Assembly: GCF_004362805.1 (NCBI RefSeq)
Contig: NZ_SNYF01000009.1
Coordinates: forward strand, 62,001-126,000
Direction of reading: 5' to 3'
Source: Algoriphagus boseongensis
Lineage (GTDB): Bacteria; Bacteroidota; Bacteroidia; Cytophagales; Cyclobacteriaceae
DNA length: 64,000 nucleotides
Shown here: positions 5,997 to 64,000 of the stretch, piece by piece
How positions within the stretch are numbered: the first letter of the stretch is position 1
How the letters are laid out: the number at the start of each line of letters is the position of its first letter
Made by a program: the position numbers and the translations under genes
Notes under the pieces: generated by a model
The model's input: only the letters and a program-made list of their open reading frames with translations
Databases searched by the model: none
What the model was told of the DNA's origin: nothing

Positions 5997-7289
5997 TCAC
6001 TTCTTCTTCCCCATATAATCCACCACCAAATAGCTGAGGGATTTTACTCCCAACACAAATCCATCTTCCTCAATATGGAACCCGGGGGTATGGTGAGAAG
6101 GGACTTTAGCTGGATCTTCCCCCTTTTTCATCGCGCCGAGCATCATGAAAAAACCAGGCTTTGCTCTTTGGAAAAAGCTAAAGTCTTCTGCTCCTGTGAT
6201 AGGATCCATGATGACCACATTTTCTGAGCCAATCGCCGCCTGTAAGGAAGGAATGGCTTGGGCGGTAAGCTCGGGCTGGTTTACTGTAGAGGGATAAAGT
6301 TTTCGAATGTTTACATCGGCTTTAGCACCTGCACTTTCGGCGATATTGGTAATGATTTCGGTAATTCTTTTATGCACCAAAGCCTGCTGCTCGTCTCCGA
6401 AAGTTCGAATGGTTCCGATCATTTCTACTTTCTCCGGAATGATATTGTGACGGATACCTCCATGAATTGCTCCTACAGTTACTACCGCTGGGTTTTGGGT
6501 AATATTGACGCTTCTGGATAGAATGGTTTGAAGACCGAGGATAGCTTGAGCGGAGGTGACGATTGGGTCTACGCTGGACCAAGGAGAAGCTCCGTGCGCT
6601 TGTGTTCCGGTAATGGTGACATTTAGATCATCTACAGCAGCCATGAATGGACCTGATCGATAACCAATCTTCCCAGTTTCCAATTGAGATTGGATATGAA
6701 GTCCAAAGATGGCATCCACATCCTCCATTACACCCTCTTCCACCATTTGCTTAGCTCCAAAAGTGGTGACTCCCGGTTCATAGATTCCTTCTTCAGCTGG
6801 TTGGAAAATAAATTTCACCGAGCCTTCCAATTGGTTTTTCATCCCTGCTAAAACCTCAGCCACACCCATCAAAATCGCCACGTGGGAGTCGTGCCCGCAA
6901 GCATGCATCACCCCGGTTTCCTGGCCATTGTAGGTCGAGGTATTGACGGATTTAAAGGGAAGGTCGTTTCTTTCGGTTACCGGTAGGGCATCCATATCGG
7001 CGCGAAGTGCGACCATAGGACCTGGTTTCCCACCTTTTAGAACTCCCACGACACCAGTGACTGCTACGTTTTCAGTGACTTCCATGCCCAAAGCGCGAAG
7101 ATGATCTGCCACGATCTTAGCGGTTCGGAATTCTTTATTCCCCAATTCAGGGTATTTGTGAAAATCACGTCTCCATTCGATCACTTTGGATTCGATGGCA
7201 GCAGATTTCTGATCGATTTCTGGGCGTAGTTTGGATTGGCCTAAGGCAGTAATGGAAAGTAAGAAAAGAGGTAGAATTAGCTTTTTCAT
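5997..7289 (-). CDS. Secreted M20D family amidohydrolase (copy 1)
   Basis: This is a 430-residue metal-dependent amidohydrolase with a cleavable signal peptide (MKKLILPLFLLSITALGQ), so it is probably periplasmic. The M20D metal ligands are visible: MHACGHDSH, PAEEG, GLHI and the C-terminal SHHTPGF. ALRADMDALP is the usual N-terminal substrate-pocket motif. The family cleaves N-acyl or N-carbamoyl amino acids, hippurate, or indole-acetyl conjugates; the substrate here is unknown. Copy 2 at 10953-12245 has the same length and is nearly the same through most of the protein, and the sequence just past both stop codons is also shared, so the pair arose by duplication. Confidence 0.9.
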   Translation of the reverse strand: MKKLILPLFLLSITALGQSKLRPEIDQKSAAIESKVIEWRRDFHKYPELGNKEFRTAKIVADHLRALGMEVTENVAVTGVVGVLKGGKPGPMVALRADMDALPVTERNDLPFKSVNTSTYNGQETGVMHACGHDSHVAILMGVAEVLAGMKNQLEGSVKFIFQPAEEGIYEPGVTTFGAKQMVEEGVMEDVDAIFGLHIQSQLETGKIGYRSGPFMAAVDDLNVTITGTQAHGASPWSSVDPIVTSAQAILGLQTILSRSVNITQNPAVVTVGAIHGGIRHNIIPEKVEMIGTIRTFGDEQQALVHKRITEIITNIAESAGAKADVNIRKLYPSTVNQPELTAQAIPSLQAAIGSENVVIMDPITGAEDFSFFQRAKPGFFMMLGAMKKGEDPAKVPSHHTPGFHIEEDGFVLGVKSLSYLVVDYMGKKK

Positions 7290-10952: not shown

Positions 10953-12245
10953 TCACTTCTTCATCCCCATATAATCCACCACAAAGTAGCTTAGTACTCG
11001 CATCCCAAGGACAAATCCTCCCTCGTCAATGTAGAAGTCAGGGGTATGGTGGGAAGGAGTTTTGGTAGGATCTTCCCCTTTTTTCATCCCTCCCAAACCG
11101 ATAAATAATCCGGGTTTTTCCCGCTGATAAAAGCTGAAATCTTCTGCCCCGGTTACTGGGGGATTGTAGTTGATGTTTTCTTTTCCAGCGGCAGCTTCCA
11201 TGGAAGCAACCATTTTGGAAGTGAGTTCTGGATCATTGACCGTGGAAGGGTAGAGCTTTTGGATATTCACCTCGGCTCTAGCTCCGGCACTTTCGGCAAT
11301 ATTCGTTGCGATCTCAGTGATTCGCTTGTGAACCAAAGCCTGTTGCTCGTCACCGAAGGTTCGGATCGTTCCGATCATTTCTACTTTCTCCGGAATGATA
11401 TTGTGACGGATACCTCCGTGAATAGCTCCCACAGTGACCACGGCGGGGTTTTGGGTGATATTGACACTTCTGGATAGGATGGTTTGAAGTCCTGTTACAA
11501 TTTGTGAGGAAGTCACAATCGGGTCCACACCGGACCAGGGAGAAGCTCCGTGGGCTTGAGTTCCATGGACGATGATTTCCAGGTTATCCACTGCAGCCTG
11601 AGCAGGACCGGAACGATAGCCAATTTTCCCCACTTCGGTCTGGGAAGAAATATGCAAACCGAAAATCGCATCCACATCTTTCATTACGCCTTCTTCCACC
11701 AGTTGCTTGGCTCCCCAAGAAGTAACTCCGGGTTCATATATGCCTTCTTCAGCAGGCTGGAAGATGAATTTCACCGAGCCTTCCAATTGATCCTTCATTC
11801 CTGCCAGGACTTCTGCCACGCCCATCAGGATGGCCACGTGAGTATCGTGTCCGCAAGCATGCATGACGCCGGTTTCCTGTCCATTATAAGTGGTGGTGAC
11901 GGTAGACTTGAAAGGTAAATCAACCCGTTCAGTAACAGGAAGGGCATCCATATCCGCTCGAAGTGCGACGGTTGGTCCGGGTTTGCCTCCTTTTAAGACA
12001 CCGACTACGCCAGTCACGGCCATTCCCTCGCTCACTTCTATTCCCAAGGAGCGAAGATGATCGGCTATTTTCTTGGCAGTTCGGACTTCGTTATTGCCGA
12101 GTTCCGGATGTTGATGGATGTCCCGTCTCCATTCGATCACTTTGGATTCGATGGAAGAGGCTCTTTGATCAATGGTTGGGCGAAGTTTACTCTGCCCAAA
12201 GGCTGTTCCGCTTACCAGGAGTAAGGGTAAAATAAGTTTTCTCAT
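10953..12245 (-). CDS. Secreted M20D family amidohydrolase (copy 2)
   Basis: This 430-residue paralog of 5997-7289 has the signal peptide MRKLILPLLLVSGTAFGQ, the metal-site motifs MHACGHDTH, PAEEG, GLHI and SHHTPDF, and the pocket motif ALRADMDALP. Differences from copy 1 are spread along the protein but concentrate around residues 215-235 and 345-380, which may mean a changed substrate. A stretch of about 50 bases around 11373-11422 is identical in DNA to copy 1 while the flanks differ at synonymous sites, which hints at local gene conversion or a short conserved run. It has its own terminator and is probably transcribed alone. Confidence 0.9.
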   Translation of the reverse strand: MRKLILPLLLVSGTAFGQSKLRPTIDQRASSIESKVIEWRRDIHQHPELGNNEVRTAKKIADHLRSLGIEVSEGMAVTGVVGVLKGGKPGPTVALRADMDALPVTERVDLPFKSTVTTTYNGQETGVMHACGHDTHVAILMGVAEVLAGMKDQLEGSVKFIFQPAEEGIYEPGVTSWGAKQLVEEGVMKDVDAIFGLHISSQTEVGKIGYRSGPAQAAVDNLEIIVHGTQAHGASPWSGVDPIVTSSQIVTGLQTILSRSVNITQNPAVVTVGAIHGGIRHNIIPEKVEMIGTIRTFGDEQQALVHKRITEIATNIAESAGARAEVNIQKLYPSTVNDPELTSKMVASMEAAAGKENINYNPPVTGAEDFSFYQREKPGLFIGLGGMKKGEDPTKTPSHHTPDFYIDEGGFVLGMRVLSYFVVDYMGMKK

Positions 12246-49672: not shown

Positions 49673-51019
49673 TTACTTACTTGCCACTTGTTTTGGCTTG
49701 GTAGAGATCCTTTGCCAAATCAGTTCACCCACTTGGGTTCCTTGGGTCACTCCATACTCGATGGCTGGTTTGTAGTGAATTCCACCATAGAATCGGCTGA
49801 TTGCTGCTTCTTTGGCTGCGCTGGAAAAGGATTCGTATTCTCTTATCGGTAAGCCATAATCCACTTCTGAGCTATCCACCAAATGGAATTCGTCTCCAAA
49901 GAGCTGTGCCAAAGTATAGGCAGAGGCTGCTGAAGCCACGCTATGACCGCTTGTATGCTCAGGAAATGGAGGAGTCTGAAGTAAAGGCACCCAGTTTTCG
50001 TCAATGTGCTGATTGATGTAGGTTTCTGGACGGATCAGTTTGCTTCGGTACTTTTCATCCCAACAGGAAATAAAGGCCTCATTCAAGGAAATGCCGGTCA
50101 GGGCTAAGGTTTCCACCGTGCCTTTCCAGTCTTTGCCTGCTCCAGCAGCGGCAATGGAAGCAATGCTCATCCAATGTCCCCCGGGAGTGATTTTTTTCTC
50201 CGCAAACATCACATGCCCTTTGACATTCATTTTGTAGGGATTGCAATCCCAAAACATAGCGATGTCCTTATTTTCCTTAGTGGCATTGACATCCGCCTCA
50301 TAAACCTCTTTCGCCAATTTGAAGAATTCCGAATTGGGATCTGTGGAAAAAGGAGGTGGAGGAAGGGGTTTGAATTGAGCAGCTGAGTCCAGGACAAAGG
50401 TTCTGATCTTGTTCCAATGCGGCTCGATCGCTTCCATGTAGGCCGGAGGAGTAGGCTGCCAAGTGCCCGGGTCACTGACTACGGTATACTTGGGGAAAGA
50501 TCGACTTTGGTGGTAATTGTCCTTTTTGGAATAGGCGATGACATGATCCGCGATCTCTTTTCCGAAGGCCAGAGAAGCTTCAAAAACCTCATCAGGAATT
50601 CCTTTTTCTTTCAATTCTGCATACACCTTATCCCTGTGCTCATGCATCATTTCTTCTGAGAAAATCAATGCAGTTCCTACCTGATAATATGCCGCTAAAG
50701 CAGCAAGAGGAGGATAAATTCCCTCAGGGACAGTGACAGAAATAGGTTCAGATCCATTCAATTGCCCCATCAAAGAGGCATAATTGGTAGGGTCGGTAGC
50801 TGCGGCTACTTCATAAGCTGCCAAAGAGGTATAGGAATAAATTCGGGCTGCCACAGGAGGGGAGAAGATGTCGTGAATGATGACTTCTGTTACCCGTTTT
50901 TGGGCTCGGTGAAAGTAGCTTCCATCCGAAATGGCTTGGGAATAGTCCTTTTTTTCCTGACAGGATATTGCCAAAAGAACCAAGGCCAAGCCGGTAAATA
51001 GATATTTAAACGTACGCAT
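49673..51019 (-). CDS. Vanadium-dependent haloperoxidase-like (PAP2-fold) lipoprotein
   Basis: This 448-residue lipoprotein has the lipobox LLAISC (Cys20). The PAP2/vanadium haloperoxidase site is visible: Lys323 and Arg330 in KYRSKLIRP, Ser357-Gly358-His359 in PEHTSGHS, Arg409 in SRFYGG and His415, the expected vanadate ligand, in GGIHY. The spacing from Lys to Arg equals that of fungal chloroperoxidase. It could oxidise halides with peroxide, or act as an acid phosphatase, which uses the same site. It is the last gene of the SusCD-linked group but has its own consensus promoter, 78 bases before the start. Probably faces the periplasm or cell surface. Confidence 0.85.
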   Translation of the reverse strand: MRTFKYLFTGLALVLLAISCQEKKDYSQAISDGSYFHRAQKRVTEVIIHDIFSPPVAARIYSYTSLAAYEVAAATDPTNYASLMGQLNGSEPISVTVPEGIYPPLAALAAYYQVGTALIFSEEMMHEHRDKVYAELKEKGIPDEVFEASLAFGKEIADHVIAYSKKDNYHQSRSFPKYTVVSDPGTWQPTPPAYMEAIEPHWNKIRTFVLDSAAQFKPLPPPPFSTDPNSEFFKLAKEVYEADVNATKENKDIAMFWDCNPYKMNVKGHVMFAEKKITPGGHWMSIASIAAAGAGKDWKGTVETLALTGISLNEAFISCWDEKYRSKLIRPETYINQHIDENWVPLLQTPPFPEHTSGHSVASAASAYTLAQLFGDEFHLVDSSEVDYGLPIREYESFSSAAKEAAISRFYGGIHYKPAIEYGVTQGTQVGELIWQRISTKPKQVASK

Positions 51020-51097
51020 AGTGGGTTTTCAATTTAAGTGTGATAAATCATTGCTCCAGATTGGGTTTTGAGCGATTGATCAACTTACATGAGAATT

Positions 51098-51128
51098 CAA
51101 AGCTAAGGATATGCAAATCAATCCCAAA
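51098..51128 (-). promoter_or_regulatory. Consensus Bacteroidota promoter for the haloperoxidase-like gene
   Basis: On the minus strand: TTTG (51128-51125), 19 bases, then TAGCTTTG (51105-51098). Both boxes match the consensus exactly. It lies directly after the stop of the upstream giant lipoprotein gene (51133) and gives a leader of about 70 bases. Confidence 0.65.
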
Positions 51129-51132
51129 TGAT

Positions 51133-54100
51133 TTAATTCAGGTTTTTTAGAGGGATCCAGTGTAAAGGCCCATTGTTTTCTGCGCCCAGGTAGTAGGACG
51201 AGTTCTTCCATTTGATCCTTTTGATTCGTCTGATTTCAGGTTTGGGAGAGGGGGCGAGTTGGATAGTTTCTAAGTTCCATTGACCTTTATTCCATCGGAG
51301 TAGATGGGGAGGGTTTTGGATAGATTTCCCTAGATCTACTCTTAGGTCAGCCGAATTACTTCCGATGGCGATACTGCCGCTCTCTTCATCATAGGCTAAT
51401 GCCATTACCGGGCTCCACTGAACGGGATCAGGGAATGAAACAAATTCAAAGCTTCCATCAGCCTGTTGAAAATAAACTCCAGATCTAAATTCATAAGCCG
51501 GTAGTTTTCTGGCCTTTTGAATTTCCTCTTTCGGGAAAAGATCCTCAGGTTTGCTGATTTTGGAGTATTCAGCATAGGAAGAATGGGTTCGTTTGACTCC
51601 AGGAATCTGCCTAATCAAATCATCCCGGGTTGCAAAAGGAACCAACTTTTCGCCCATGTAATGAAAAATCAGGGGATCGGCCTGTCCGTTTGCGTCAAAA
51701 TCGTGGTGATAGAGCCAAACAGGTTTCTCGGAACTTGCCTTAAGCTTGGAGTTTAGACCAAGATTTCCAACCAGAATATCCGGTTTACCATTTCCATCCA
51801 AGTCAGCGATTTCCAAGGATTGAATCCAGCCTGCAGAAAATTCTAGCCCTTTAGGTTTGAATTCAGTAGCTTTTTGATTGGCAAATTTGAAAACCCGAAT
51901 GGGATTCCAATCTCCAGTCAAAATCAATTCGTGCTGATTATCTCCATCCAGATTTGCAAACTGGAGGGTATTAACCATCCCAAATTCAACGTTTCCTCCA
52001 AACCAAAGGGCGGTTTCGTCTTTGAATTGCCCTCTTCCATTGTTGATCAAGAGGCTGCTTTTTGGACTGGCGCCATAGTCTCCGGTTTTCACTGAAGAAC
52101 CTACAAACAAGTCCAAATCTCCATCCCCGTCCACATCAGCAATGGCCACTGATGAGGTGTTTTCCCCGATTGGAGGAAGAGAATTCATGGAAAAAATAAA
52201 ATTTCCAGATCCATCCCCAAAGAAAATCCGATCAAAATTGAACAAGTCACCTGTAGGATTTTCATTTCCTCCACTTCCCACAAACAAGTCCAAATATCCA
52301 TCCTGATTAAAATCTCCAAATTCAGCCACCACATCTTCTGCTTTTGCCAATTGCTCAAAAATCGGATTTGGCATCGGATCAAATCCCCCATTTTGGTTTT
52401 GGATCAAAAGAGTCCCGGCTTGATCTTTGGCTCCTCCGAGGTACAAATCCTCTTTTCCATCCCCGTTTACATCTCCCACAGCCAGTGCGGGACCCATTTT
52501 GGAAAAGCTTTTAGGAGCTAAATATTCCCGCTTGAGGAAATCGATCTCATCTTTTTCGACATGTCTCCAAGGAATTGAGGGAAGTTCTAAATCTGGAGAA
52601 CTCAAGTTTTCAAAGGGTTTTGTCCAAGGATTACCTTTTCCTTCTTCCAAAATCAGCTTTTGATTCGCAGGGCAAAATGGAAAGAGTTCAGCGTATCCTG
52701 TTGGCCAGAAAACCGCAATAGAGTCCACCATGGGAATTTTCCCAAGACCAAAAACCAAATCAGGGGAAGGGCCTGACTGGAAGCCTCTGGAAGTGCTGAT
52801 TCGTTGGGAAAACTGCTGGTTTCCTGCAAATAACGTCACTTTTCCTCCTATACCTTGGGGATTATGGATTTGGGATTTCAGGCGAATTTTCAAAAAATTA
52901 TTACCGGATTGCTCGCTGTGATTTTGGTAAATAAATGCTGGTTGATCGATGTTATTTACAACCAGATCCAAGTCCCCGTCATTGTCCAAATCGGCATAAA
53001 CAGAGCCGTTGGAATAGCTTTCCTGATCCAACCCCAGCGTTTTACTTTGATTTTCAAATCGAAGTCCTCCAAGATTTTTCCAGGCAAAATTTGAAATTTT
53101 CAACTGAGGAAGCATCTCGATTTGCTTTTGACGGAGTTCCTCAATTGGAGTTTTCAAATCCACATCCTGGCTGTATTGGATGAAATCCAAGTCATTAGGT
53201 CGCTTGGTGATTCCATTGGTCACATGGATATCAACCAGTCCGTCGTTGTCAAAGTCGAAAAGTAGGGGAGACCAGCTCCAATCCGAGGCATAAACCTCAG
53301 AGAACAGGGCAATTTCTGAAAACCCTTTACCGGATTGATTCAATTGGAGGTGGTTGCGTACATATTGATCTCCGTAACCAAAATTTTTCTTGATCTGATA
53401 GACCTCAGCCTTGTCTTCTCCCACTGATTTCATCCAGATTTCTGGATTTTCAGGAAGCATATCTGTAGTGAAAATTTCCGGAAAACCGTCTCCATTCAAG
53501 TCAGCGGCATCATTTCCCATGCTGTATCGGCTGGTGCTAGGGATGAGTTCCTGAAGTGTTTCCCGGAAGGTTCCATCTTGATTATTGAGGTAGAGGTAAT
53601 CGTTTTCCGTGAAATCATTGGAAACATACAGGTCCAGCCAGTCGTCTCCGTTGAAATCCTCTACAGCTACACCCAAGCCAAAACCCAAAATGCTGGAATA
53701 GATTCCTGCTTCTTCTGTCACATCTACAAATCCCTTTAGGCCTTCCGCAAGCAAGTTTTTATAGAGTTTATCTCCACTGGGATCAGATAGGTTTCTGTTT
53801 TCAGCCTTCGCAAAAACCTCCGGGGATTTCACGTTGTGATTGAGGAGATAGAGGTCCAAATCTCCATCCCGATCGTAATCAAAGAATGCAGCATGGGTAC
53901 TGTAGCCACTAAAATCTAATCCAAAGCTTGCCGCTTCCTCGGTAAATTTTCCATCCCCTTGATTAAGGTACAGCCTGTTTTTTCCAGATGTCTTTCCCAA
54001 ATCCCCAACCTGGCAGACATAAATGTCCAGCAATCCATCCCCATTGACATCTCCCATAGTCACCCCAGTGGACCAGCCACCATCTCCACTTACTCCGGCA

Positions 54101-54420
54101 GTTTCAGTGATGTCTTCAAATTTGAAGTTACCCTTATTTAGGAAAAGCTTATTGGGCACTTGGTTTCCTGTAAAATAAAGATCGATTAGCCCGTCGTTGT
54201 TGAGGTCTCCGGCAGCGACTCCTCCTCCATTGTAGAAATAGAGGTATTCCAGAATATTGAGTTCGGAGGCAGAAGTAAGAGTATTTTGAAATCCAATCCC
54301 TGTGCTGTCGGCGGGAAGCAGGGTAAATAGGCTAGGGGTGTTTTCTTCTTTTTTCTTACAGGAAAAAAGTAAAAGTCCCAGGACTGCCAGGCCAAAAAAG
54401 GATTGGATAGAGGTTTTCAA
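51133..54420 (-). CDS. Giant FG-GAP/VCBS-repeat lipoprotein with UnbV/ASPIC domain (third copy)
   Basis: This 1095-residue lipoprotein has the lipobox LLLFSC, a KKKEEN stretch, then many FG-GAP/VCBS repeats with calcium-loop motifs such as DLNNDGLIDLYF, DVNGDGLLDIYV, DYDRDGDLDLYL and DLDNDGDLDLVV. A UnbV/ASPIC domain lies around residues 500-580 (GGKVTLFAGNQQFSQRIS, GFQSGPSPDLVFGLG), then a second repeat set (DVDGDGDLDLFV). Translation starts at TTG, which overlaps the stop TGA of the upstream copy (TTGA, 54417-54420); an in-frame TAA nine codons up with no ATG between rules out a longer start. It is likely a surface-exposed beta-propeller. Role unknown. Confidence 0.85.
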   Translation of the reverse strand: MKTSIQSFFGLAVLGLLLFSCKKKEENTPSLFTLLPADSTGIGFQNTLTSASELNILEYLYFYNGGGVAAGDLNNDGLIDLYFTGNQVPNKLFLNKGNFKFEDITETAGVSGDGGWSTGVTMGDVNGDGLLDIYVCQVGDLGKTSGKNRLYLNQGDGKFTEEAASFGLDFSGYSTHAAFFDYDRDGDLDLYLLNHNVKSPEVFAKAENRNLSDPSGDKLYKNLLAEGLKGFVDVTEEAGIYSSILGFGLGVAVEDFNGDDWLDLYVSNDFTENDYLYLNNQDGTFRETLQELIPSTSRYSMGNDAADLNGDGFPEIFTTDMLPENPEIWMKSVGEDKAEVYQIKKNFGYGDQYVRNHLQLNQSGKGFSEIALFSEVYASDWSWSPLLFDFDNDGLVDIHVTNGITKRPNDLDFIQYSQDVDLKTPIEELRQKQIEMLPQLKISNFAWKNLGGLRFENQSKTLGLDQESYSNGSVYADLDNDGDLDLVVNNIDQPAFIYQNHSEQSGNNFLKIRLKSQIHNPQGIGGKVTLFAGNQQFSQRISTSRGFQSGPSPDLVFGLGKIPMVDSIAVFWPTGYAELFPFCPANQKLILEEGKGNPWTKPFENLSSPDLELPSIPWRHVEKDEIDFLKREYLAPKSFSKMGPALAVGDVNGDGKEDLYLGGAKDQAGTLLIQNQNGGFDPMPNPIFEQLAKAEDVVAEFGDFNQDGYLDLFVGSGGNENPTGDLFNFDRIFFGDGSGNFIFSMNSLPPIGENTSSVAIADVDGDGDLDLFVGSSVKTGDYGASPKSSLLINNGRGQFKDETALWFGGNVEFGMVNTLQFANLDGDNQHELILTGDWNPIRVFKFANQKATEFKPKGLEFSAGWIQSLEIADLDGNGKPDILVGNLGLNSKLKASSEKPVWLYHHDFDANGQADPLIFHYMGEKLVPFATRDDLIRQIPGVKRTHSSYAEYSKISKPEDLFPKEEIQKARKLPAYEFRSGVYFQQADGSFEFVSFPDPVQWSPVMALAYDEESGSIAIGSNSADLRVDLGKSIQNPPHLLRWNKGQWNLETIQLAPSPKPEIRRIKRIKWKNSSYYLGAENNGPLHWIPLKNLN

Positions 54421-57400
54421 AACTTCCAGATTTCTGCAGGAGCGTTATTTTTTACAACCAAAAGCTTATTTCCCGGAAGTAGGGAAAATGCGCGGATTTG
54501 GCCAGTCAAACTCAGGTGATGGAATCGATTTGGCAAGAAGGTAAATGTGCCATCTCCATTTCCGAGTAGGAGTTCTCCATAGCCACCGTCATATTTTCCA
54601 ACTTCAGGCTTGGCTCCAAAGAGATTGCCTCCAAGAAGGATGTCTTGCTTTCCGTCCTGATTAAAGTCTTCTACTAGTATGGAATAGATCCAAGTTTTTT
54701 GTCCGGCACTTTGGAAAGGTTTCCAGTCGAATTTTCCTTCACCTAGATTCAGCAATACCCCAGATTCCAAATTGTTGATTTGGCTCACCATAGACTTATT
54801 GACTGTTTCCGTAGGGAAAATATCCGTCAAGGACTGGTTGTTGTAATCCTTGTACTTGATGTATTTCTTTTTAATACCCGGTACCTGCTTCTCCAACTCA
54901 TGCTTCAAGGTGTAAGGAATCTCCGCTTCCCCGGATTTCTGAGTATAGATTTGTTCTATAGCTCCATTTTGGTCAAAGTCATTCAGGTAAAGACTGATTG
55001 GGCTTTCAGGAGTTGTTTTGAATCGGGAATTTTTCCCGTGGTTTCCCAAAATGATGTCCGGTTTTCCGTCAGCATTGAGATCTGCAACTTGCAGTCCCTG
55101 ATACCAGCCCTTCAGATTTTCCATTCCGGAAATAGTGGCTTTGATCAGCTTTCCATTTTGGTTTTCAAAAAATGTTGGACTCATCCAATCGCCCACCATA
55201 ACCAAATCCTGAAGAGAATCTCCATTCCAATCTACTGCCTTGATCTCCGTCACCATGCCAAGGGCCTTGAACTCAGGAGCCAATTCGGCGGATTTCTCGG
55301 TGAAGTTTCCTTTGCCATCGTTGATCCAAAGTTGAGAATCGGGATTTGCTCCATAGACGAATGGCACTAATCTTCCTCCAACAATTAAGTCCAAGGCTCC
55401 ATCTGCATTCAAATCCAGTACTTCAACACTGCTGCTACTTCCAAAAACTCCTTGAATTGCTGTGGTAAAACCTTTGGTAAATATTCCTTTTCCATCATTG
55501 AGATAAAGGCGATCTGCTAAATCCAAGGATCCAAAACCGGATTCATTTCCACCTGAAGTGACAAAAAGATCCAAATCTCCATCCCCATCTGCATCAAAGA
55601 AAACCGCATCTGTATCCTCAGAAAGCGCATCTTCATCCAAAGCGGTCTGGCTTGTAGCTTGGAAAGTACCTTCTTTCTTTCCTAGGTAAATTTTTCCAGA
55701 ATAGGTCTTTCCTCCTCCGAAATACAGATCCTCAATCCCATCTCCATTGATATCCGCCTTGGCAAAAGCAGGACCCTCTGTAGACATCATGTGATAAGTC
55801 AATCTATCCCGATCAAAATCCACAAATTCATTTTCCTGATGGGTGAATTCAATCGAAGAAGGACTTTCTAAAGTAAATTGTAGGGTAGAACTTACCGATT
55901 GAAAGAAGGACGTTCCTTCCGGAAGCGCTGAGCTTTCTTCCCAATTTAGTGTCAGGACTTGGTCTGCTTGCACATCTTTCAGTTCGGTATAGGAACCGTC
56001 AGGCCACAAGACATTGATTTGGTCAAGTTTGGAAACTGGTCCAAGTCCAAGGGTTAGCTTTGGATCAACTGAGGATTGAAAACCTCTGTTGGGCATTTGT
56101 TCCAGATAAAAAATCTGGTCACCAGATAATGCCTGAATTTGGGTTCCGATAGCCCCGGTATTTTGACCTTTTCCTTTTAAAATAAATTGAATTCGGTGAT
56201 TCTCCGGAAGCTGCGTGGTCGCTTGGCTGATGAAAATCTGAGCGGGTTGATTGACATTGTTGACGACCATATCCAGATCTCCGTCATTATCTAAATCACC
56301 ATAAGCTGTCCCATTGGAATGGATAGGTTTACCCAAACCCCATTCTTCAGCCTTATTTTTAAACCTTAGATCTCCCTGATTTTGGAATGCATAATTAGCA
56401 ATCGGGTTCACAGGGATTGGATCAATGAGCGCCTTGTAATCCACACCTTCTTTGGAGATGATTTTGATTTTGGTTTCCTCATTATCGATGAAATTCAGGT
56501 AATCCAAGTCTGTGATGTCCTGATAAATTCCATTGGCTACGAAAATGTCCCGCTTGCCGTCATTGTCCATGTCAAAAAGTAAGGCCCCCCAGCTCCAGTC
56601 TGTGGCTTCTACGCCTGCCAGCCTGCCGATTTCACTGAATGTTCCATCCCCATTATTGAGGTGGAGCATGTTTCGGGAATATTGGTAGTGGTAGCCATGC
56701 TGCTTGTTAAACTGGAATTTGTCCCAGTTTTCGAAAGTAGTGACCTGCTTCAATCGGGTAGGAGGTTCTGGCAACATATCCGTCACGAAAATGTCCAAAA
56801 GTCCATCACCGTTGATGTCGGCAATATCTGCTCCCATGGAAGCAGCACTAAGCGAACGCATGGAGGATTCGATGGACTCGGTGAAAGTTCCGTCCTGATT
56901 ATTCAGATAGAGGTAATCTCTTTCAAAAAAGTCATTGGAAATAAAGATATCCGGCCAAGTGTCCTGATTTACATCCCCAATGGTAATACCCAGTCCAAAT
57001 CCGATAATTGACCCATAAATTCCAGCTGCCTCACTGACATCAGTGAACTTTCCTCCGTCATTTCTGAATAATTTATCACCCCCAACAGGATCTCTTTTGG
57101 GTCGCTCGTTCTGCATTTTATTGAATGAGCCGATTGCCTGATAGGAGTTGTTGAGCAGGTAAACATCCAAGTCTCCGTCTTTGTCATAATCGAAAAATAC
57201 GGCGTGGGTGGAGAATCCTTGGTCAGCAAGTCCATAGGACTCCGCCATTTCCTGAAAAGTCCCATCTCCCTGATTGATGAAGAGTTCGTTTTGCTTGTTA
57301 TCTCCCTGAATATCTCCGGAATTACAAACATAAATGTCCAGCCAGCCGTCTCCATTGACATCTGCCATGGCCACTCCGGTACTCCAAGCCCGGGTGCCTG

Positions 57401-57719
57401 CCACTCCGGCTTTTTCAGTCACATCTTCAAATTGAAGATTTCCTTTGTTGAGGTAAAGTTTATTTGGGCCGAGATTGGCAGTAAAATACAAGTCCACCAA
57501 GCCATCGTTATTCACATCCCCAATTCCTACTCCACCACCATTGTAATAATTTCTGTAGGTGAAAATGTTGAACTGCTCGTTAAACTTCAAGTCGTTTCGG
57601 AAATCAACGCCAGAGTTCTCGGGGGTAATTTCTTGAAATAAGGTTGGAATTGGATCAGGCTTTGGACTACACCCAGCAACTGCTCCTGCCAATATCCATC
57701 CTGCTAGGGCTTTTTTCAT
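54417..57719 (-). CDS. Giant FG-GAP/VCBS-repeat lipoprotein with UnbV/ASPIC domain (second copy)
   Basis: This 1100-residue paralog starts at ATG 57719 with lipobox AVAGC. Its repeats include DVNNDGLVDLYF, DVNGDGWLDIYV, DYDKDGDLDVYL, DMDNDGKRDIFV, DLDNDGDLDMVV and DADGDGDLDLFV; the UnbV/ASPIC domain is at about 505-575 (GAIGTQIQALSGDQIFYLEQ, GFQSSVDPKLTLGLG). The order repeats-ASPIC-repeats is the same as in the other two copies, and it appears closer to the first copy (shared RDPxGGxKLFRN and DFFERDYLYLNNQ). It overlaps the small lipoprotein gene by 4 bases upstream and the third copy by 4 bases downstream. Confidence 0.85.
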   Translation of the reverse strand: MKKALAGWILAGAVAGCSPKPDPIPTLFQEITPENSGVDFRNDLKFNEQFNIFTYRNYYNGGGVGIGDVNNDGLVDLYFTANLGPNKLYLNKGNLQFEDVTEKAGVAGTRAWSTGVAMADVNGDGWLDIYVCNSGDIQGDNKQNELFINQGDGTFQEMAESYGLADQGFSTHAVFFDYDKDGDLDVYLLNNSYQAIGSFNKMQNERPKRDPVGGDKLFRNDGGKFTDVSEAAGIYGSIIGFGLGITIGDVNQDTWPDIFISNDFFERDYLYLNNQDGTFTESIESSMRSLSAASMGADIADINGDGLLDIFVTDMLPEPPTRLKQVTTFENWDKFQFNKQHGYHYQYSRNMLHLNNGDGTFSEIGRLAGVEATDWSWGALLFDMDNDGKRDIFVANGIYQDITDLDYLNFIDNEETKIKIISKEGVDYKALIDPIPVNPIANYAFQNQGDLRFKNKAEEWGLGKPIHSNGTAYGDLDNDGDLDMVVNNVNQPAQIFISQATTQLPENHRIQFILKGKGQNTGAIGTQIQALSGDQIFYLEQMPNRGFQSSVDPKLTLGLGPVSKLDQINVLWPDGSYTELKDVQADQVLTLNWEESSALPEGTSFFQSVSSTLQFTLESPSSIEFTHQENEFVDFDRDRLTYHMMSTEGPAFAKADINGDGIEDLYFGGGKTYSGKIYLGKKEGTFQATSQTALDEDALSEDTDAVFFDADGDGDLDLFVTSGGNESGFGSLDLADRLYLNDGKGIFTKGFTTAIQGVFGSSSSVEVLDLNADGALDLIVGGRLVPFVYGANPDSQLWINDGKGNFTEKSAELAPEFKALGMVTEIKAVDWNGDSLQDLVMVGDWMSPTFFENQNGKLIKATISGMENLKGWYQGLQVADLNADGKPDIILGNHGKNSRFKTTPESPISLYLNDFDQNGAIEQIYTQKSGEAEIPYTLKHELEKQVPGIKKKYIKYKDYNNQSLTDIFPTETVNKSMVSQINNLESGVLLNLGEGKFDWKPFQSAGQKTWIYSILVEDFNQDGKQDILLGGNLFGAKPEVGKYDGGYGELLLGNGDGTFTFLPNRFHHLSLTGQIRAFSLLPGNKLLVVKNNAPAEIWKF

Positions 57720-58294
57720 GATTCTTTTTCGCTGAGCATTTTTTGAACTGGTAGATCAGAGATTTCCACCCGGACAGCAGAAAGAGATTTTTTAAAAATT
57801 CGGATTCGTCTATTACCATCCATTTTGACATAGACGATTTTACTTTCATCCTCATTGCTGACCTCAATAAATCCCGGCCCGTACCATTCCTCCATCAATT
57901 TTAATACATCTTCACGGAGTTTGTCTACGCTAAGTTCCTCATTCCAAGGCGCCCAACTTTCGTATTGAAACTCAATCGGCATGAGGTAGATTTTGTCTTC
58001 GAGAAACTTTGGATAAAAGCGCATTTTTGCAGCATTACCTGAAGGCATTTCTGGGGAATATTCTACTGAAAGTTCAGTCGGGCCATTGGTGAGTAAGCCC
58101 TCTTTATTTAGATCCCAGCAGGTTTGGAAAAAGTCCCGCTTCTCCATTCCCAATTTCAGCCCGAGGAAAAGTTCGTCTACTTTTTTCCCTGAGGAAAGTT
58201 CTCTTTTTTCCAGCTTCTCATATTCAGATTGGCAAGAAAAGAAAATCAATAGAAAGAAAATGCTACTGTGTTTTGAAAACCAACGGTTCATCAT
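57716..58294 (-). CDS. Hypothetical lipoprotein between two giant repeat genes
   Basis: This 192-residue protein begins with MMNRWFSKHSSIFFLLIFFSC, giving a lipobox Cys and a charged start (QSEYEKLEKRE). The mature part has a helix with VDELFLGLKLGMEKRDFFQTCWDLN and then beta strands (AKMRFYPKFLEDKIYLMPIEFQYES, KIVYVKMDGNRRIRIFKKSLSAVRVEISDL). No family recognised. The start lies inside the last 32 bases of the upstream giant gene, and its stop overlaps the next giant gene's ATG (ATGA), so it is translated with both. A chaperone or partner for the giant proteins is a reasonable guess, not shown. Confidence 0.75.
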   Translation of the reverse strand: MMNRWFSKHSSIFFLLIFFSCQSEYEKLEKRELSSGKKVDELFLGLKLGMEKRDFFQTCWDLNKEGLLTNGPTELSVEYSPEMPSGNAAKMRFYPKFLEDKIYLMPIEFQYESWAPWNEELSVDKLREDVLKLMEEWYGPGFIEVSNEDESKIVYVKMDGNRRIRIFKKSLSAVRVEISDLPVQKMLSEKES

Positions 58295-61200
58295 TATTTC
58301 TAAATGTGATTAAATACGAATTTGTTGAGGATTTGACTTGGAGCATACTTCTGGTTTCTCCTGGAATGAATAATCCACTTTCCTCAGGTAAAAGAGCCTT
58401 CATTCCTTTTCCAACCTGATACTGAACCACCCATCCATAGCTACCCATCTGCGAACCCATCTCGGGTTTTATTCTGCTTTGATTTCCTGCAAATACCAGA
58501 TAAGGTGAGCCAGAAGAAGTGGAAATCTGTTCTATGGAATACACTGCAGAACTTTGAACCTCAATTGGAAGCGGTTCTCGGATGAATGAGCCATTGCCCT
58601 GGTTGATCCATAGCGAAGTCTCCAGCAAATCGGCTTGTAAAATTAATGAATTTGCCCATACTGACTCAGGAAATAAAGATTCTAAATTGGCTGATTTGTA
58701 AGAATCGTAAGTGGTCAGCTGCTTTTTAAAAACTGGGATTTGTTTCAAAAGCGAATTTTTCAAAACAATCGGAGTGGTTCCGTTTTGATCTTTAAAAGCT
58801 AGAATCTGCTCTACTGTCCCATTCTGATCAAAATCATTAACTACCAGCTGTAGCGGAGCTTTGGCACTTGTTCTAATTCTGGAGTTTAGACCTTGATTTC
58901 CAGCTAAGATATCTAGCTTTCCATCTCCGTTAACATCGATCAGCTGAAGACATTTCCACAAGCCTTTTGTATTTGAGAAGCCAAGTTCTTTCGTTTTTTC
59001 CACCCATTTCCCCTGTAGAAAAGAGAATACTCGTACATCCATCCATTCACCAACTACTACTAGTTCTTCTTGAGAATCCCCATCCAAATCCGCCAGCTTT
59101 CCATCTGTCGGCATTCCCATTTGGGTTAGATTTGGAGCGATTTCTTGGCTTACTTCGGTGAAGTTTCCACGTCCGTCATTTTTCCAAAACTGTAATCCTA
59201 CAGGAACACCATAGGCGAATGGGACGACTCTTTGTCCGGTGATTATATCCTGATCCCCATCCTGATCCCAGTCATGGGCTAATACAAATGCAGTTGGAGT
59301 TGGGGAAAACTGCTGGGAAGAAAGCGAGTAGTTGCCTTTGCCATCATTCAGATATAATCTATCCTGGTAGCTAGGAGAAAAGTCAGAAAACTCTATTCCC
59401 CCACTAGCAACCAGTAAGTCTAGGGCTCCGTCCCCGTTCGCATCAAAAAACGAGGATGCCACATCTTCAGCAAGCGCATGCTCATCAAATAACTTTTGCT
59501 GTTGAGGAATAAAGTCTCCCTTTTGGTTTTGAAGGAGTAGGGTGGAGGACTGTGCTTTTGAACCAGGGATAAACAAGTCTTCTAAACCGTCTCCATTGAC
59601 ATCGTCTTTTGTCGCTTTTGGACCTTCGTTACTGATCATCCAAAATCTCAATCTATCCCTATCAAAATCCACAAAATCACTTTCCTGATGAGAAAATGGA
59701 ATGCGTAAATCAGCAGTTGAGAAAATCCTCGTGGAGTGGGGATTTGAGTTATTTAGACTAGGACTGGAGGACTTTTTAGATGGTTTGAAAATTTGATTTG
59801 AAGGGATATTATGGAATTGACTCGCTGATCCATCTGGCCAGGTGATCTCAATCTGTTCCGCAACAGTATGCGTGCCTAAACCAAAATGTAATCTGGAATC
59901 CACAGAAGACATGTATCCTTTTACAGGTTGGAATTCCTGAAAATAGGTATCATTTCCAGCTTTGATTTGAACCTTCGCTCCAAAGTTATTTCCAAGGTCA
60001 ATCACTAGAAAATTGCCTTTTTTGCTTTCTGAAGCATTGTTCCTGTAGAGGAAGGTTGATTCATTTAGGTTATTGACTATCAAATCCAAATCCCCGTCAT
60101 TATCCAAATCCCCATAAGCAGCCCCAGAACTGAAAGTCAGTTGTTCAAGTCCAGATTGGGAAGCGATATTTTCGAATTTCCAAGCCCCCAGATTCCTAAA
60201 CAAGTAATTCTGTTGGGGATTGGATGGGAATTCATCGATCATTTTGGTCAACAAAACCGAGTCGGCTCTATATTCCTCTATTTTGCTTTGGTTGTTCACA
60301 TAAAAATCTACAAAGTCAAAATCGGTAAGATCTTTTACGATCCCATTGGCTACAAAAATGTCTTTCAAGCCATCCAAATCTGCATCAAAAATCAATGCCC
60401 CCCAGCTCCAATCCGTAGCGTCTACTTCGGCCATTCTGGAAACTTCAGAAAAAACCGGGGTTTGAGAATCTGGCCTGAAGCCTAAATTTCTTTGGAGGGT
60501 ATTTCGGGTGAATTGATGGTGATAGCCTGATTTGATATTGGCTTGATACTTATCCCATTCCTCAAATGGAGTTTTTGTTTTGATTCTTTCCCATGAAGCT
60601 GGAAGCATTTCAGTAACAAAAATATCCGGACGGGAATCGTTGTCCAGATCAGCAATATCCGCACCCATGGAACCCATGCTGATTTCAGGCAAAATGTCGG
60701 GAAGTACTTCCGAAAATGTTCCGTTTTGGTTATTCAAATAGAGATAATCTCTTTCAAAAAAATCATTGGATACATAAAGATCCGGCCAGTTGTCCTGGTT
60801 TAGATCCGCTACAGTCACGCCAAGCCCATAACCTATGGAGCTACCGAAAATCCCGGCTTCTTCGGAAACATCAGAAAACCTGCCACCCTCGTTTCTAAAG
60901 AGCTTGTTTCCTCCTTCCGGATCACGGATTTCCCGCTGCCCTTCTCTTAAATCAAAGACTCCTACAGATCTGCCTGAATTGCTGAGCAGATACATGTCCA
61001 GGTCTCCGTCTTTGTCATAGTCGAAGAAAACAGCATGTTGGCTTAAGCCTTCTTCAGCCAAGCCAAAGGCTTTGGATTGTTCTGAAAAAGTAAGGTCTCC
61101 GTTATTGATAAAAAGTTCATTATGCCTTCTTTCTCCTCCTTTTGGGCCGGATTTACAGACATAAATATCCAAAAGGCCATCTCCATTTACATCGGCCATG

Positions 61201-61550
61201 CTGACTCCTGTTGACCAAAGGCCTGTTGAATTTAGACCGCTTTGGTCTGTAATGTCTTTGAATTTTAGATTTCCCTGATTTAGGAAAAGTCTATTTGAAG
61301 TTTGATTTCCAGAAAGGAAAATATCCAACAGCCCGTCCTGGTTAATGTCTCCAAGGGCAACTCCCGCACCATTGTAAAAATTTCGGAAAGTATAGGGGTT
61401 GATCTTTTCTGTATAGCTCAGGTCATTCCTGAAGGCTATACCGGTTTCTTCTGCGGAGAGAAGTGTGAATAAGGTGTGCTCTTCCGGGCTTTTTTTCTTG
61501 CAGGAAGAAAAGCAAAAAAGAAAGAGAGATAGGTAGAGTAATTTTTTCAA
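58263..61550 (-). CDS. Giant FG-GAP/VCBS-repeat lipoprotein with UnbV/ASPIC domain (first copy)
   Basis: This 1095-residue lipoprotein has the signal MKKLLYLSLFLFCFSSC and a KKKSPEEH start. Repeats carry calcium loops such as DINQDGLLDIFL, DVNGDGLLDIYV, DYDKDGDLDMYL, DADLDGLKDIFV and DLDNDGDLDLIV; the UnbV/ASPIC domain is near 500-580 (FGAKVQIKAGNDTYFQEF, GYMSSVDSRLHFGLG). It starts with TTG (61548-61550); the frame is open upstream for only 17 codons to a TGA and contains no ATG. A terminator-like hairpin lies between it and susD, so its level is probably lower than that of susCD. Confidence 0.85.
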   Translation of the reverse strand: MKKLLYLSLFLFCFSSCKKKSPEEHTLFTLLSAEETGIAFRNDLSYTEKINPYTFRNFYNGAGVALGDINQDGLLDIFLSGNQTSNRLFLNQGNLKFKDITDQSGLNSTGLWSTGVSMADVNGDGLLDIYVCKSGPKGGERRHNELFINNGDLTFSEQSKAFGLAEEGLSQHAVFFDYDKDGDLDMYLLSNSGRSVGVFDLREGQREIRDPEGGNKLFRNEGGRFSDVSEEAGIFGSSIGYGLGVTVADLNQDNWPDLYVSNDFFERDYLYLNNQNGTFSEVLPDILPEISMGSMGADIADLDNDSRPDIFVTEMLPASWERIKTKTPFEEWDKYQANIKSGYHHQFTRNTLQRNLGFRPDSQTPVFSEVSRMAEVDATDWSWGALIFDADLDGLKDIFVANGIVKDLTDFDFVDFYVNNQSKIEEYRADSVLLTKMIDEFPSNPQQNYLFRNLGAWKFENIASQSGLEQLTFSSGAAYGDLDNDGDLDLIVNNLNESTFLYRNNASESKKGNFLVIDLGNNFGAKVQIKAGNDTYFQEFQPVKGYMSSVDSRLHFGLGTHTVAEQIEITWPDGSASQFHNIPSNQIFKPSKKSSSPSLNNSNPHSTRIFSTADLRIPFSHQESDFVDFDRDRLRFWMISNEGPKATKDDVNGDGLEDLFIPGSKAQSSTLLLQNQKGDFIPQQQKLFDEHALAEDVASSFFDANGDGALDLLVASGGIEFSDFSPSYQDRLYLNDGKGNYSLSSQQFSPTPTAFVLAHDWDQDGDQDIITGQRVVPFAYGVPVGLQFWKNDGRGNFTEVSQEIAPNLTQMGMPTDGKLADLDGDSQEELVVVGEWMDVRVFSFLQGKWVEKTKELGFSNTKGLWKCLQLIDVNGDGKLDILAGNQGLNSRIRTSAKAPLQLVVNDFDQNGTVEQILAFKDQNGTTPIVLKNSLLKQIPVFKKQLTTYDSYKSANLESLFPESVWANSLILQADLLETSLWINQGNGSFIREPLPIEVQSSAVYSIEQISTSSGSPYLVFAGNQSRIKPEMGSQMGSYGWVVQYQVGKGMKALLPEESGLFIPGETRSMLQVKSSTNSYLITFRNNDEPLVFKTQ

Positions 61551-61563
61551 GGTACTGGTAAAA

Positions 61564-61595
61564 AAAAGGAAGTGTACCGAGGCACACTTCCTTTT
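61564..61595 (-). terminator. Terminator/attenuator between susD and the first giant gene
   Basis: AAAAGGAAGTGT (61564-61575) pairs with ACACTTCCTTTT (61584-61595); on the minus strand eight T residues follow the stem. It lies 20 bases behind the susD stop and 14 bases before the TTG start of the next gene. It could stop most transcripts after susD and let a fraction through. Confidence 0.75.
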
Positions 61596-61614
61596 ACTAT
61601 GAATTCAGAAGGTA

Positions 61615-63105
61615 TTAATAACCCGGATTCTGCTTCAATGCAGGGTTTGCATTGATCTGGTTTTGAGGAATAGGGAATAGAGCTCTGAAAGGTTGAGAAG
61701 CGGTCTTTTCCCACCAAGGCTGATTCCACTTTCCGAAACGGATTTGGTCAGATCTTCTAGTAGCTTCAGCAAACATTTCTCTTCCTCTTTCCGCGAATAG
61801 TTCGTCAAGAGTCAAAGTGGTGTAAGCTGGCATGCTAGCTCGTGCTCTGATTTGATTAACAGCTGCAAGAGCTACTGCAGGTTTATTTTGACGCAAGGCA
61901 GCTTCAGCTTTGATCAGGATGATTTCACCATATCTGATCAATGGATAGTCATTATTCAAAGAAGAACCAGCACCCAAAGCAAATTCAAATTTACCTACTC
62001 TAGCACCTGCCTGACGGAAAGCGTTTGGAGCGAGCATGTTGATCTGAGGAGTGAAGGTTAATGGAGGTCCATCAGGATCATTTGCTTCTGCAGAAATGTC
62101 AATCAATCTGGTTCCATTGGAAGCAAACTGAGGTCCTACCAAGAAGCTTCTTCTACGAACATCTGTCGCATCATAGCTATTGTAGAATTCTTCCAAAGAT
62201 GCATATCCGTTCCAAGGCTGTTCCTGCAAGTTGAAAGTTTGCTGGCTCAGGTAATGAAGAGTCATTTGAGGAAGGTTAAATCCACCAGCGTTATTCTGAT
62301 CGTAAGGAAGAGTCAGGATGTTTTCGGTAGATCCGCTGTTTCTCTCTGAGAAGTTTGCGAAGTAGTTAGAAGAAAGAGAATACTTTCCGCTATTGATTAC
62401 TGCATCAGCAGCAGCTTCAGCTTCAGCCCACTTTGGAGTACCAGTGTAAACACCGGCATTCAGGTAAAGCTTAGCCAACATAGCTTGTGCAGTCATCTTG
62501 TTGATTGTAGACTTCAAGCTGGTTTCTGGAAGCAAAGCGATATTATCCTTGATAGACTTCTCGATGAAAGCAAATACTTCAGCTCTTGTAGCATTGGTTG
62601 GATTTCCACCAGTGGTAGTTTCATCGATGATTGGAACATTACCAAAGCTGTCGATCAACCACATGTAAACCAAAGCTCTCAAAACTTTCAATTCAGCATT
62701 CAAGGAAGCTACGTCTGGATACTGGATCAACAAGTTATTGATTTCACCGACTGCACTGTAGCAATAAGCCCAAGAGTTGTTGAATGATTCTTCAGAAGCA
62801 TTCCAAGTGTGCTTGTGCATTCTTATCCACTGACCACCATCTTCCCAGTCAGCACCTTTCTGTGGAATAGCCATTTCGTCGGAAGAAACTTCCTGAATGG
62901 ACCAAATACTGTTATGACCTCCCCAAGAACCAACGATTCTGGAGTAAGCTGAAGCCTTAAGCACGTTAACCAAGTTGGGATTATTGCTATTGGCTATATC
63001 CTCTGCTGTCACCCCATCAAGAACCTCTTGCTCCAACTCCTGACATGCTCCAATGGCAAATACCAATGGAAGCATTAAGCAGATTTTATTAAATGATTTT
63101 AACAT
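61615..63105 (-). CDS. RagB/SusD family nutrient-uptake lipoprotein
   Basis: This 496-residue surface lipoprotein has the lipobox FAIGAC (MLKSFNKICLMLPLVFAIGAC). SusD features are present: TPR-like helices with SFNNSWAYCYSAVGEINNLL, LKVLRALVYMWLIDSFGNVP, and the C-terminal RGREMFAEATRRSDQIRFGKW followed by RALFPIPQNQINANPALKQNPGY. It binds the ligand and hands it to the SusC channel encoded 19 bases upstream. The ligand cannot be read from the sequence; no glycosidase is in this group. Confidence 0.9.
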   Translation of the reverse strand: MLKSFNKICLMLPLVFAIGACQELEQEVLDGVTAEDIANSNNPNLVNVLKASAYSRIVGSWGGHNSIWSIQEVSSDEMAIPQKGADWEDGGQWIRMHKHTWNASEESFNNSWAYCYSAVGEINNLLIQYPDVASLNAELKVLRALVYMWLIDSFGNVPIIDETTTGGNPTNATRAEVFAFIEKSIKDNIALLPETSLKSTINKMTAQAMLAKLYLNAGVYTGTPKWAEAEAAADAVINSGKYSLSSNYFANFSERNSGSTENILTLPYDQNNAGGFNLPQMTLHYLSQQTFNLQEQPWNGYASLEEFYNSYDATDVRRRSFLVGPQFASNGTRLIDISAEANDPDGPPLTFTPQINMLAPNAFRQAGARVGKFEFALGAGSSLNNDYPLIRYGEIILIKAEAALRQNKPAVALAAVNQIRARASMPAYTTLTLDELFAERGREMFAEATRRSDQIRFGKWNQPWWEKTASQPFRALFPIPQNQINANPALKQNPGY

Positions 63106-63124
63106 ATCTGTATGATTTAACTTG

Positions 63125-64000
63125 TTATTTAAAGTTTACAGTTACACCCAAAGTGAATGAACGGGTCTGGAAGTAAGTATTTCTACGCTCGATACCCGGA
63201 GAAAGTGCCGAAGTAAAGGCGTCACCGTTTTCTGAGTCATTAGTTCTTACCTCAGGATCGATACCTGTATAATTTGTAATCGTAAATAGATTTTGAGCCG
63301 CTAAGTATACTCTTAAAGAACCCAAATTTGGTGAATTGGTTTTAATATTATAACCCAATTCCATGTTGTCCAATCTGACGAATGAAGCGTCTTCAACATA
63401 AGAGCTGTTGAATGTAGGGCTTGAAGTAACCAATGGGTTGGTTGGAGTCTTGTCTGTGATTACAGAGTTCCAAGTGTTTGATCCTGGGTCGCCGTTTTCA
63501 TAGAAACCTCTGTATGAGTTATACAAATCGTGACCCCATGCACCTCTGAAGAAGAAGTTCAAGTTCCACTGACCCCACATCAAGCTGTTAGCAAAACCGA
63601 ATTCACCTTTAGGCAAACCGTTACCTAGCTTTTCAAATTCGTTAGGGTCTGTAGTTGAAAGAATATACTGACCGCTTTCAGTCAAACCATTCAATCTTGG
63701 ACCATAGATATCACCCAAATTTTGGCCTACTCTGTTGTAGATGATTGGGTTGTTATTTTGACCAGGAGCTCCTGGAGTTGCAAATCTCAATTCTTCGAAT
63801 CCTAATTCACCATTTGACAAGCTTTCAATAGTTGTTTTGTCATAGATAGTGAAGTTTACAGTTGGAGACCACTTAAGGGCACCTTTACCGATTTGATTTA
63901 CTGAGGTTACGAATTCAAAACCAGCAGCTCTCAAGTCAGCCAAGTTTACCCAGGTAGAACCTGCAGTGTTAAATCTTCCTGGATCAAATGGGTTTGGAGC
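63125..64000 (-). CDS. SusC/RagA family TonB-linked outer-membrane protein, C-terminal end (5' part outside window)
   Basis: The frame is open from the window edge to TAA 63125-63127 and gives the last 291 residues of a SusC-type barrel. Hallmarks are NLADLRAAGFEF, WGQWNLNFFFRGAWGHDLYN, EDASFVRLDNMELGYNI, LRVYLAAQNLFTITNYTGIDPEVR and the final TRSFTLGVTVNFK with a terminal aromatic residue. It forms the TonB-driven channel paired with the SusD gene 19 bases downstream. The plug and N-terminal domains lie beyond the window, so the total length is unknown. Confidence 0.9.
   Translation of the reverse strand, partial: APNPFDPGRFNTAGSTWVNLADLRAAGFEFVTSVNQIGKGALKWSPTVNFTIYDKTTIESLSNGELGFEELRFATPGAPGQNNNPIIYNRVGQNLGDIYGPRLNGLTESGQYILSTTDPNEFEKLGNGLPKGEFGFANSLMWGQWNLNFFFRGAWGHDLYNSYRGFYENGDPGSNTWNSVITDKTPTNPLVTSSPTFNSSYVEDASFVRLDNMELGYNIKTNSPNLGSLRVYLAAQNLFTITNYTGIDPEVRTNDSENGDAFTSALSPGIERRNTYFQTRSFTLGVTVNFK

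Follow-up and report, generated by a model that had tools for sequence, protein, structure and literature searches.

SusC and SusD form a TonB-driven pore and its lid. Bacterial vanadium haloperoxidases have, to our knowledge, no settled physiological role; entries 4CIT and 4USZ of the Protein Data Bank (PDB) are the vanadium iodoperoxidase of Zobellia galactanivorans, whose iodide activity is taken here from titles in reference lists. We likewise know of no function in bacteria for ASPIC propeller proteins. All three protein types are encoded side by side in Algoriphagus boseongensis (contig NZ_SNYF01000009.1, positions 62,001 to 126,000; 64,000 nt, hereafter the window), in a cassette of seven minus-strand genes for SusC, SusD, three giant ASPIC/FG-GAP lipoproteins, a small lipoprotein and a vanadium-dependent haloperoxidase-like (VHPO) lipoprotein (Table 1). 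The cassette is genuine and recurs widely, and computation shows its gene families, the intact vanadate site of the VHPO and the conserved gene order.

Gene families and conservation of the cassette

The seven tightly packed genes of the initial annotation are all open reading frames (ORFs) at the place and strand it gave, with Pfam families in agreement, and its proposal that they make up a surface system for uptake, one member being an enzyme of vanadate/PAP2 type, is supported. From susC to the VHPO gene, gaps of 19 and 64 bp are followed by overlaps of 32, 4 and 4 bp and a gap of 113 bp; the adjacent SusC and SusD genes, separated by the first of these gaps, have the arrangement of a SusCD import system. 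The complete SusC ORF extends beyond the window end (1029 aa; L005:3126-6215), and the whole protein has CarbopepD_reg_2, Plug and TonB barrel domains over the Pfam cut-off. On these families, identification of the cassette as a probable importer is well supported. A lipobox-like site (permissive pattern) is present in all six proteins lying wholly inside the window. The genes may form a single transcript. Scans for promoters (18 hits; shuffled mean 24.4) and terminators (17 hits; shuffled mean 15.8) showed no excess of either. Chance clustering was rejected, since three of the four ASPIC domains in the whole 4.18-Mb genome lie within this putative operon and ASPIC-VHPO linkage recurs in relatives.

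Table 1 Genes of the SusCD-ASPIC-VHPO cassette, with positions in the window.
Product	Position	Strand	Basis
SusC-like TonB-dependent transporter, C-terminal 291 aa	63125..64000	-	Pfam; C-terminal part matches RagA/SusC structures
SusD-like outer-membrane lipoprotein, 496 aa	61615..63105	-	Pfam SusD_RagB 3.9e-22; closest PDB 3ck7 SusD, E 4.7e-25
ASPIC/FG-GAP lipoprotein 1, 1095 aa	58263..61550	-	Pfam FG-GAP_3 1.1e-74, UnbV_ASPIC 1.7e-20
Small lipoprotein, 192 aa	57716..58294	-	Nothing at E<=0.001 in Pfam or NCBIfam
ASPIC/FG-GAP lipoprotein 2, 1100 aa	54417..57719	-	Pfam FG-GAP_3 7e-88, UnbV_ASPIC 1.5e-17; PDB 9etn CRTAC1 E 3.7e-13
ASPIC/FG-GAP lipoprotein 3, 1095 aa	51133..54420	-	Pfam FG-GAP_3 6.9e-76, UnbV_ASPIC 3e-14
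VHPO-like lipoprotein, 448 aa	49673..51019	-	PAP2 over Pfam cut-off; phmmer 4cit E 2.5e-144

A profile scan of genome contigs gave at least 581 confirmed VHPO loci, of which the best 80, chosen by similarity, form a first sample; several of these contigs end before the region is covered, the family hidden Markov models (HMMs) were trained on the same 80 loci, making family assignments there partly circular, and spurious short ORFs may interrupt same-strand runs. One or more ASPIC genes, regardless of strand, occur in 53/80 loci, and ASPIC and VHPO genes share one unbroken same-strand run in 47/80. The order ASPIC-small-ASPIC-ASPIC-VHPO is present in 19/80 (L039, L040, L044, L046, L047, L049, L050, L058, L059, L069, L075, L093, L096, L098, L103, L105, L109, L111 and L112), with the first ASPIC gene truncated at the end of the locus in all of them. 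Deviations are a GH65 gene (L059) or an opposite-strand ORF (L096) before the VHPO gene, short ORFs in between (L049) and a third ASPIC gene split into two ORFs (L098). Record titles place the full-order loci in Cytophagia, Saprospiria and Flavobacteriia, and include Algoriphagus, Cognataquiflexum, Belliella, Marinoscillum, Haliscomenobacteraceae, Saprospirales and Flavobacteriaceae.

Since the 10-kb flanks cut off SusCD, SusD alone was sought in the genomes behind 25 of the 80 loci by comparing its position with that of the VHPO gene, with contig identity deduced from coordinates. A same-strand SusD gene immediately precedes the cassette genes in 22/25, including all 19 full-order loci; in L037 the pair is on the other strand, and in L071 and L108 there is none nearby among the matches listed. 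In L110 a gene for a cytochrome-c-domain protein (L110:5038-6423) separates SusD from ASPIC ahead of the VHPO gene.

A second sample of 40 further VHPO regions, hand-picked from an order-level hit list and not random, repeats the pattern, with the full ASPIC-small-ASPIC-ASPIC-VHPO order in L134, L135 and L156. A tree of 121 VHPOs was built from both samples minus a duplicate (L121, same VHPO as L062), plus the window enzyme and 4CIT; with the window excluded, 110 relatives could be scored for linkage, and nine loci plus 4CIT were left unscored. Of the 110, 71 have a same-strand ASPIC gene no more than 6 kb upstream (50/71 in the first sample, 21/39 in the second), against a chance expectation estimated at ~1% because ASPIC density is ~1 per Mb in this genome. 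Linkage is spread over the tree, its label changing 18 times compared with a shuffled mean of 32.3. The co-occurrence across Bacteroidota on which the initial annotation had staked its proposal is thus strong, both as ASPIC upstream and as full order. When the 4CIT stretch was searched at class level, relatives were detected in 59/395 genomes at E<=1e-60; among 20 of these regions, hand-picked from the hit list and not random, ASPIC is within 6 kb upstream in nine. One region (L195) was left out of this count as the gene caller dropped its VHPO, and an ASPIC-labelled ORF adjoins that VHPO by position. Of the five class-level loci closest to 4CIT (63-74% identity), all but L180 carry the cassette (L177, L178, L179 and L181).

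The haloperoxidase-like enzyme and the ASPIC propellers

4CIT/4USZ, a vanadium-dependent haloperoxidase, is the sole PDB match of the window VHPO at E<=0.001, covering residues 9-439, with 54% identity to 4CIT. Residues K323, R330, S357, G358, H359, R409 and H415 are assigned to the vanadate site by its motif (Lys, Arg, Ser-Gly-His, Arg, His), and all seven are unchanged in 121/121 aligned sequences, the window VHPO and 4CIT among them. The usual PAP2 phosphatase motif ends in H-x3-D, its final His being followed by Asp at the fourth position. That terminal motif of PAP2 acid phosphatases is missing throughout the alignment, where the position is Ala (113), Ser (3), Thr (2) or Gly (3), and Asp in 0/121. 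Given the 4CIT match, the invariant vanadate site and the lack of this Asp, the product is read as a haloperoxidase, its enzyme activity being putative, and a preference for iodide may be suspected by kinship to 4CIT. A plain phosphatase was rejected as first-choice reading, the motif Asp being gone in every sequence. The closest named relatives of the window enzyme, among the matches listed, are from Algoriphagus. Tandem VHPO pairs lie behind one ASPIC gene in L052, L055, L056, L060 and L061 (Cyclobacterium and relatives) and behind two ASPIC genes in L067.

Each giant has one ASPIC domain with FG-GAP repeats on either side, both domains over the Pfam cut-off as in the ASPIC/UnbV FG-GAP family, and calcium-type loops (D-x-[DN]-x-[DNS]-G-x2-D) number 9, 10 and 11 in the three proteins. 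A profile of 33 ASPIC proteins matches CRTAC1 (9etn; E 4.4e-26) and has a weaker similarity to integrin alpha-V (best E 4.1e-7), suggesting that the giants are calcium-loop propellers related to CRTAC1. Relatives of the 192-aa lipoprotein were identified in 22/80 VHPO loci, with an ASPIC gene alongside in every one.

ASPIC genes also accompany SusCD in loci without a VHPO. Twenty strong ASPIC hits were hand-chosen away from known VHPOs, one of which proved to be a VHPO cassette, leaving 19. ASPIC is behind SusD in 12/19, with one further gene intervening in one of these loci and SusC before SusD in 11 of the 12, and is not behind SusD in 7/19. The window's own genome has a second SusC-SusD-ASPIC locus (L006:4449-13235, contig C7), which continues with genes for creatininase (other strand), asparaginase-2, CutC and another FG-GAP protein; no VHPO was seen in the fetched stretch of this locus. 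Bacterial ASPIC propeller proteins are frequent SusCD partners, and because they stand behind SusC-SusD without a VHPO in 12/19 loci they look like uptake partners rather than enzyme stand-ins.

Neighbouring genes and the possible role of the cassette

The cassette is flanked by opposite-strand genes, for guanylate kinase and a cytidylyltransferase-like protein downstream and for a DUF5686 protein upstream. Elsewhere in the window, two M20 peptidase genes of equal length (5997-7289 and 10953-12245) have a 300-nt stretch in common at 78% identity.

In relatives from the first sample, recurring neighbours, nearly always on the VHPO strand, encode GH65, GH37 trehalase, GlpK, GlpD-type, GlpF, sugar MFS, SSF symporter, GH13 and ROK proteins. 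Counting loci whose retrieved DNA holds a same-strand gene of at least one of six families (GH65, GH37, GlpK, GlpD, GlpF, MFS), such sugar/glycerol genes are present in 27/71 ASPIC-linked VHPO loci (20/50 first sample, 7/21 second), 4/39 VHPO loci without ASPIC, 3/9 unscored loci and 0/19 ASPIC loci without VHPO (27/71 vs 0/19, Fisher p 4e-4, relatedness not corrected). The earlier idea that the cargo enzymes of a SusCD locus have been replaced is at best half right, given these 27. Same-strand GH65 or GH37 genes are near 19/71 ASPIC-linked relatives, and some related loci have a GH65 gene that separates ASPIC from VHPO. The GH65 protein of L100 passes the kojibiose-hydrolase cut-off (1052.8 vs 800 bits; best match 7fe3), and the GH65 cluster HMM also catches other GH65 proteins, e.g. 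in L143 (genome G059, not in the kojibiose-hydrolase list). Single examples of GH37, GlpK and the MIP/GlpF channel each pass a family cut-off; the GlpD-like example scores below the cut-offs for both GlpD and GlpO, and the MFS example falls below that for sucrose symporters. Two Algoriphagus loci have a trehalose-phosphate synthase/phosphatase gene after the VHPO gene (L041:11517-13691, over the NCBIfam cut-off; L045:11448-13721), with GH15 nearby on the other strand in both.

The explanation tentatively favoured here, at less than even confidence, is an importer for small alpha-glucoside/glycerol-type solutes, with ASPIC proteins as receptors or scaffold, while peroxide and halide would be dealt with by the VHPO at the surface. 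The operon would encode one outer-membrane uptake machine plus surface helpers: SusC-SusD would import, and the three ASPIC/FG-GAP lipoproteins and the small lipoprotein, judging from gene order, may be accessory receptor or scaffold subunits of a putative complex. The ligand would most likely be an osmolyte-type alpha-glucoside or glycerol-glucoside (glucosylglycerol, trehalose or kojibiose), a proposal based on the relatives' neighbouring genes and not on those of the window. Beside the importer, the VHPO may oxidise halide, probably iodide, with H2O2, either removing peroxide or yielding hypohalous acid during feeding, for example on algal or cyanobacterial exudate. One study lists glycerol, glucosylglycerol, glucosylglycerate, sucrose and trehalose in a cyanobacterial consortium with an Algoriphagus member (PMC5507952).

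Several observations weigh against this explanation. ASPIC is missing within 6 kb upstream in 39/110 scored relatives and upstream in 10/20 class-level regions (including L183, with only 2.8 kb visible, and L196, with ASPIC downstream); in the DNA retrieved for 44/71 ASPIC-linked relatives, none of the six sugar/glycerol families is present; and the control ASPIC loci without VHPO were hand-picked and differ in lineage. Kojibiose hydrolase is beside the VHPO in at least 5 of the 23 order-level genomes with both, among the matches listed (G017, G019, G050, G064 and G132), and we know of no biochemical link between haloperoxidases and alpha-glucosides. Neither kojibiose hydrolase nor GH37 trehalase was found in the window's genome, and a relative's trehalose-phosphate synthase, used as a probe without a positive control, had no match there; the sugar link is therefore unreadable from this organism, and the relatives' sugar genes were rejected as defining its substrate.

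The 39 relatives without nearby ASPIC, together with the 12/19 loci in which ASPIC follows SusC-SusD without a VHPO, would also fit mere linkage, in which SusC-SusD-ASPIC serves uptake in general and the VHPO, retained in the operon, is a defence enzyme of the surface in its own right, with no common ligand. PMC9296495 points the same way, describing Zobellia vIPO3 as upregulated with Ascophyllum nodosum vs alginate and discussing this as a response to algal defence. However, retention of the ASPIC-small-ASPIC-ASPIC-VHPO order in 19/80 loci from several classes would be difficult to account for if the proteins had no joint role, which leaves separate functions rather unlikely. If the PAP2-fold enzyme were instead a phosphatase, a phosphorylated glycoside or glycerol-phosphate polymer would be dephosphorylated at the surface for import by SusCD. 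The PAP2 domain over the Pfam cut-off, the GlpK, GlpF and GlpD-type genes of relatives and a glycerophosphodiester phosphodiesterase gene near the L096 VHPO are consistent with such a route, but the enzyme matches nothing in the PDB at E<=0.001 except a vanadium haloperoxidase, the Asp of the usual PAP2 motif is replaced by Ala, Ser, Thr or Gly in 121/121, and the annotated recurrent clusters held glycerol kinase and no glycerol-phosphate transporter (none was searched for), making it quite improbable.

Halogen handling may alternatively be the purpose itself: the VHPO would oxidise iodide with H2O2 at the cell surface, the propellers with SusCD would import iodine species or an iodinated carrier, and sugar genes, where they occur, would provide the glucose from which H2O2 is made. 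In Arenibacter C-21, whose genome has at least five 4USZ homologues, iodine uptake required glucose, oxygen and calcium, a system that generates H2O2 or oxidises iodide could substitute for glucose, and glucose oxidase plus haloperoxidase were proposed (PMC5064120). The 9-11 calcium-type loops of each giant and the match of the window VHPO to 4CIT/4USZ would suit such a process, but SusD is nearest to starch SusD, pointing to sugars, and ASPIC-SusCD exists without VHPO; this purpose is judged unlikely. Its full form, surface machinery for peroxide-dependent uptake of iodine or an iodinated ligand, in which the VHPO makes the species, calcium-loaded ASPIC proteins capture it and SusCD imports it, is very doubtful. 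Use of alpha-glucosides would then feed H2O2 production in lineages with those genes and, if true, bacterial vanadium iodoperoxidases would gain a physiological role.

Comparison with known systems

Gene order kept over several classes ties the VHPO to one class of SusCD importer, and in some lineages also to small-sugar and glycerol genes, providing a concrete test system for the role of the enzyme. The initial annotation could name no matching pathway, and no description of the cassette was found in the open-access literature, subscription journals being mostly outside this search; passages of PMC11871015 and PMC8490876 add nothing on VHPO gene context.

Among described systems, the Z. galactanivorans iodoperoxidase (4CIT, 4USZ) is alike in the seven vanadate-site residues at the identity given above, a comparison of enzyme sequences alone. 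GH65 kojibiose hydrolase (7fe3) has relatives in some related loci, the enzyme not being found in the window's genome; 7fe3 belongs to a dextran locus of Flavobacterium johnsoniae that is not known to include VHPO or ASPIC genes. The giants have the ASPIC domain and FG-GAP repeats in common with CRTAC1/ASPIC-UnbV FG-GAP proteins (9etn) but, unlike CRTAC1, are ~1,100 aa in length, appear to be bacterial lipoproteins encoded behind SusD, and have a second repeat half that weakly resembles integrin alpha-V. The susC-susD pair and the lipoprotein genes downstream of it are as in SusCD/RagAB importers and polysaccharide utilisation loci; the window cassette differs from the latter in that none of its seven genes encodes a carbohydrate-active enzyme by Pfam, and in place of a glycosidase it has three ASPIC propellers and a VHPO.

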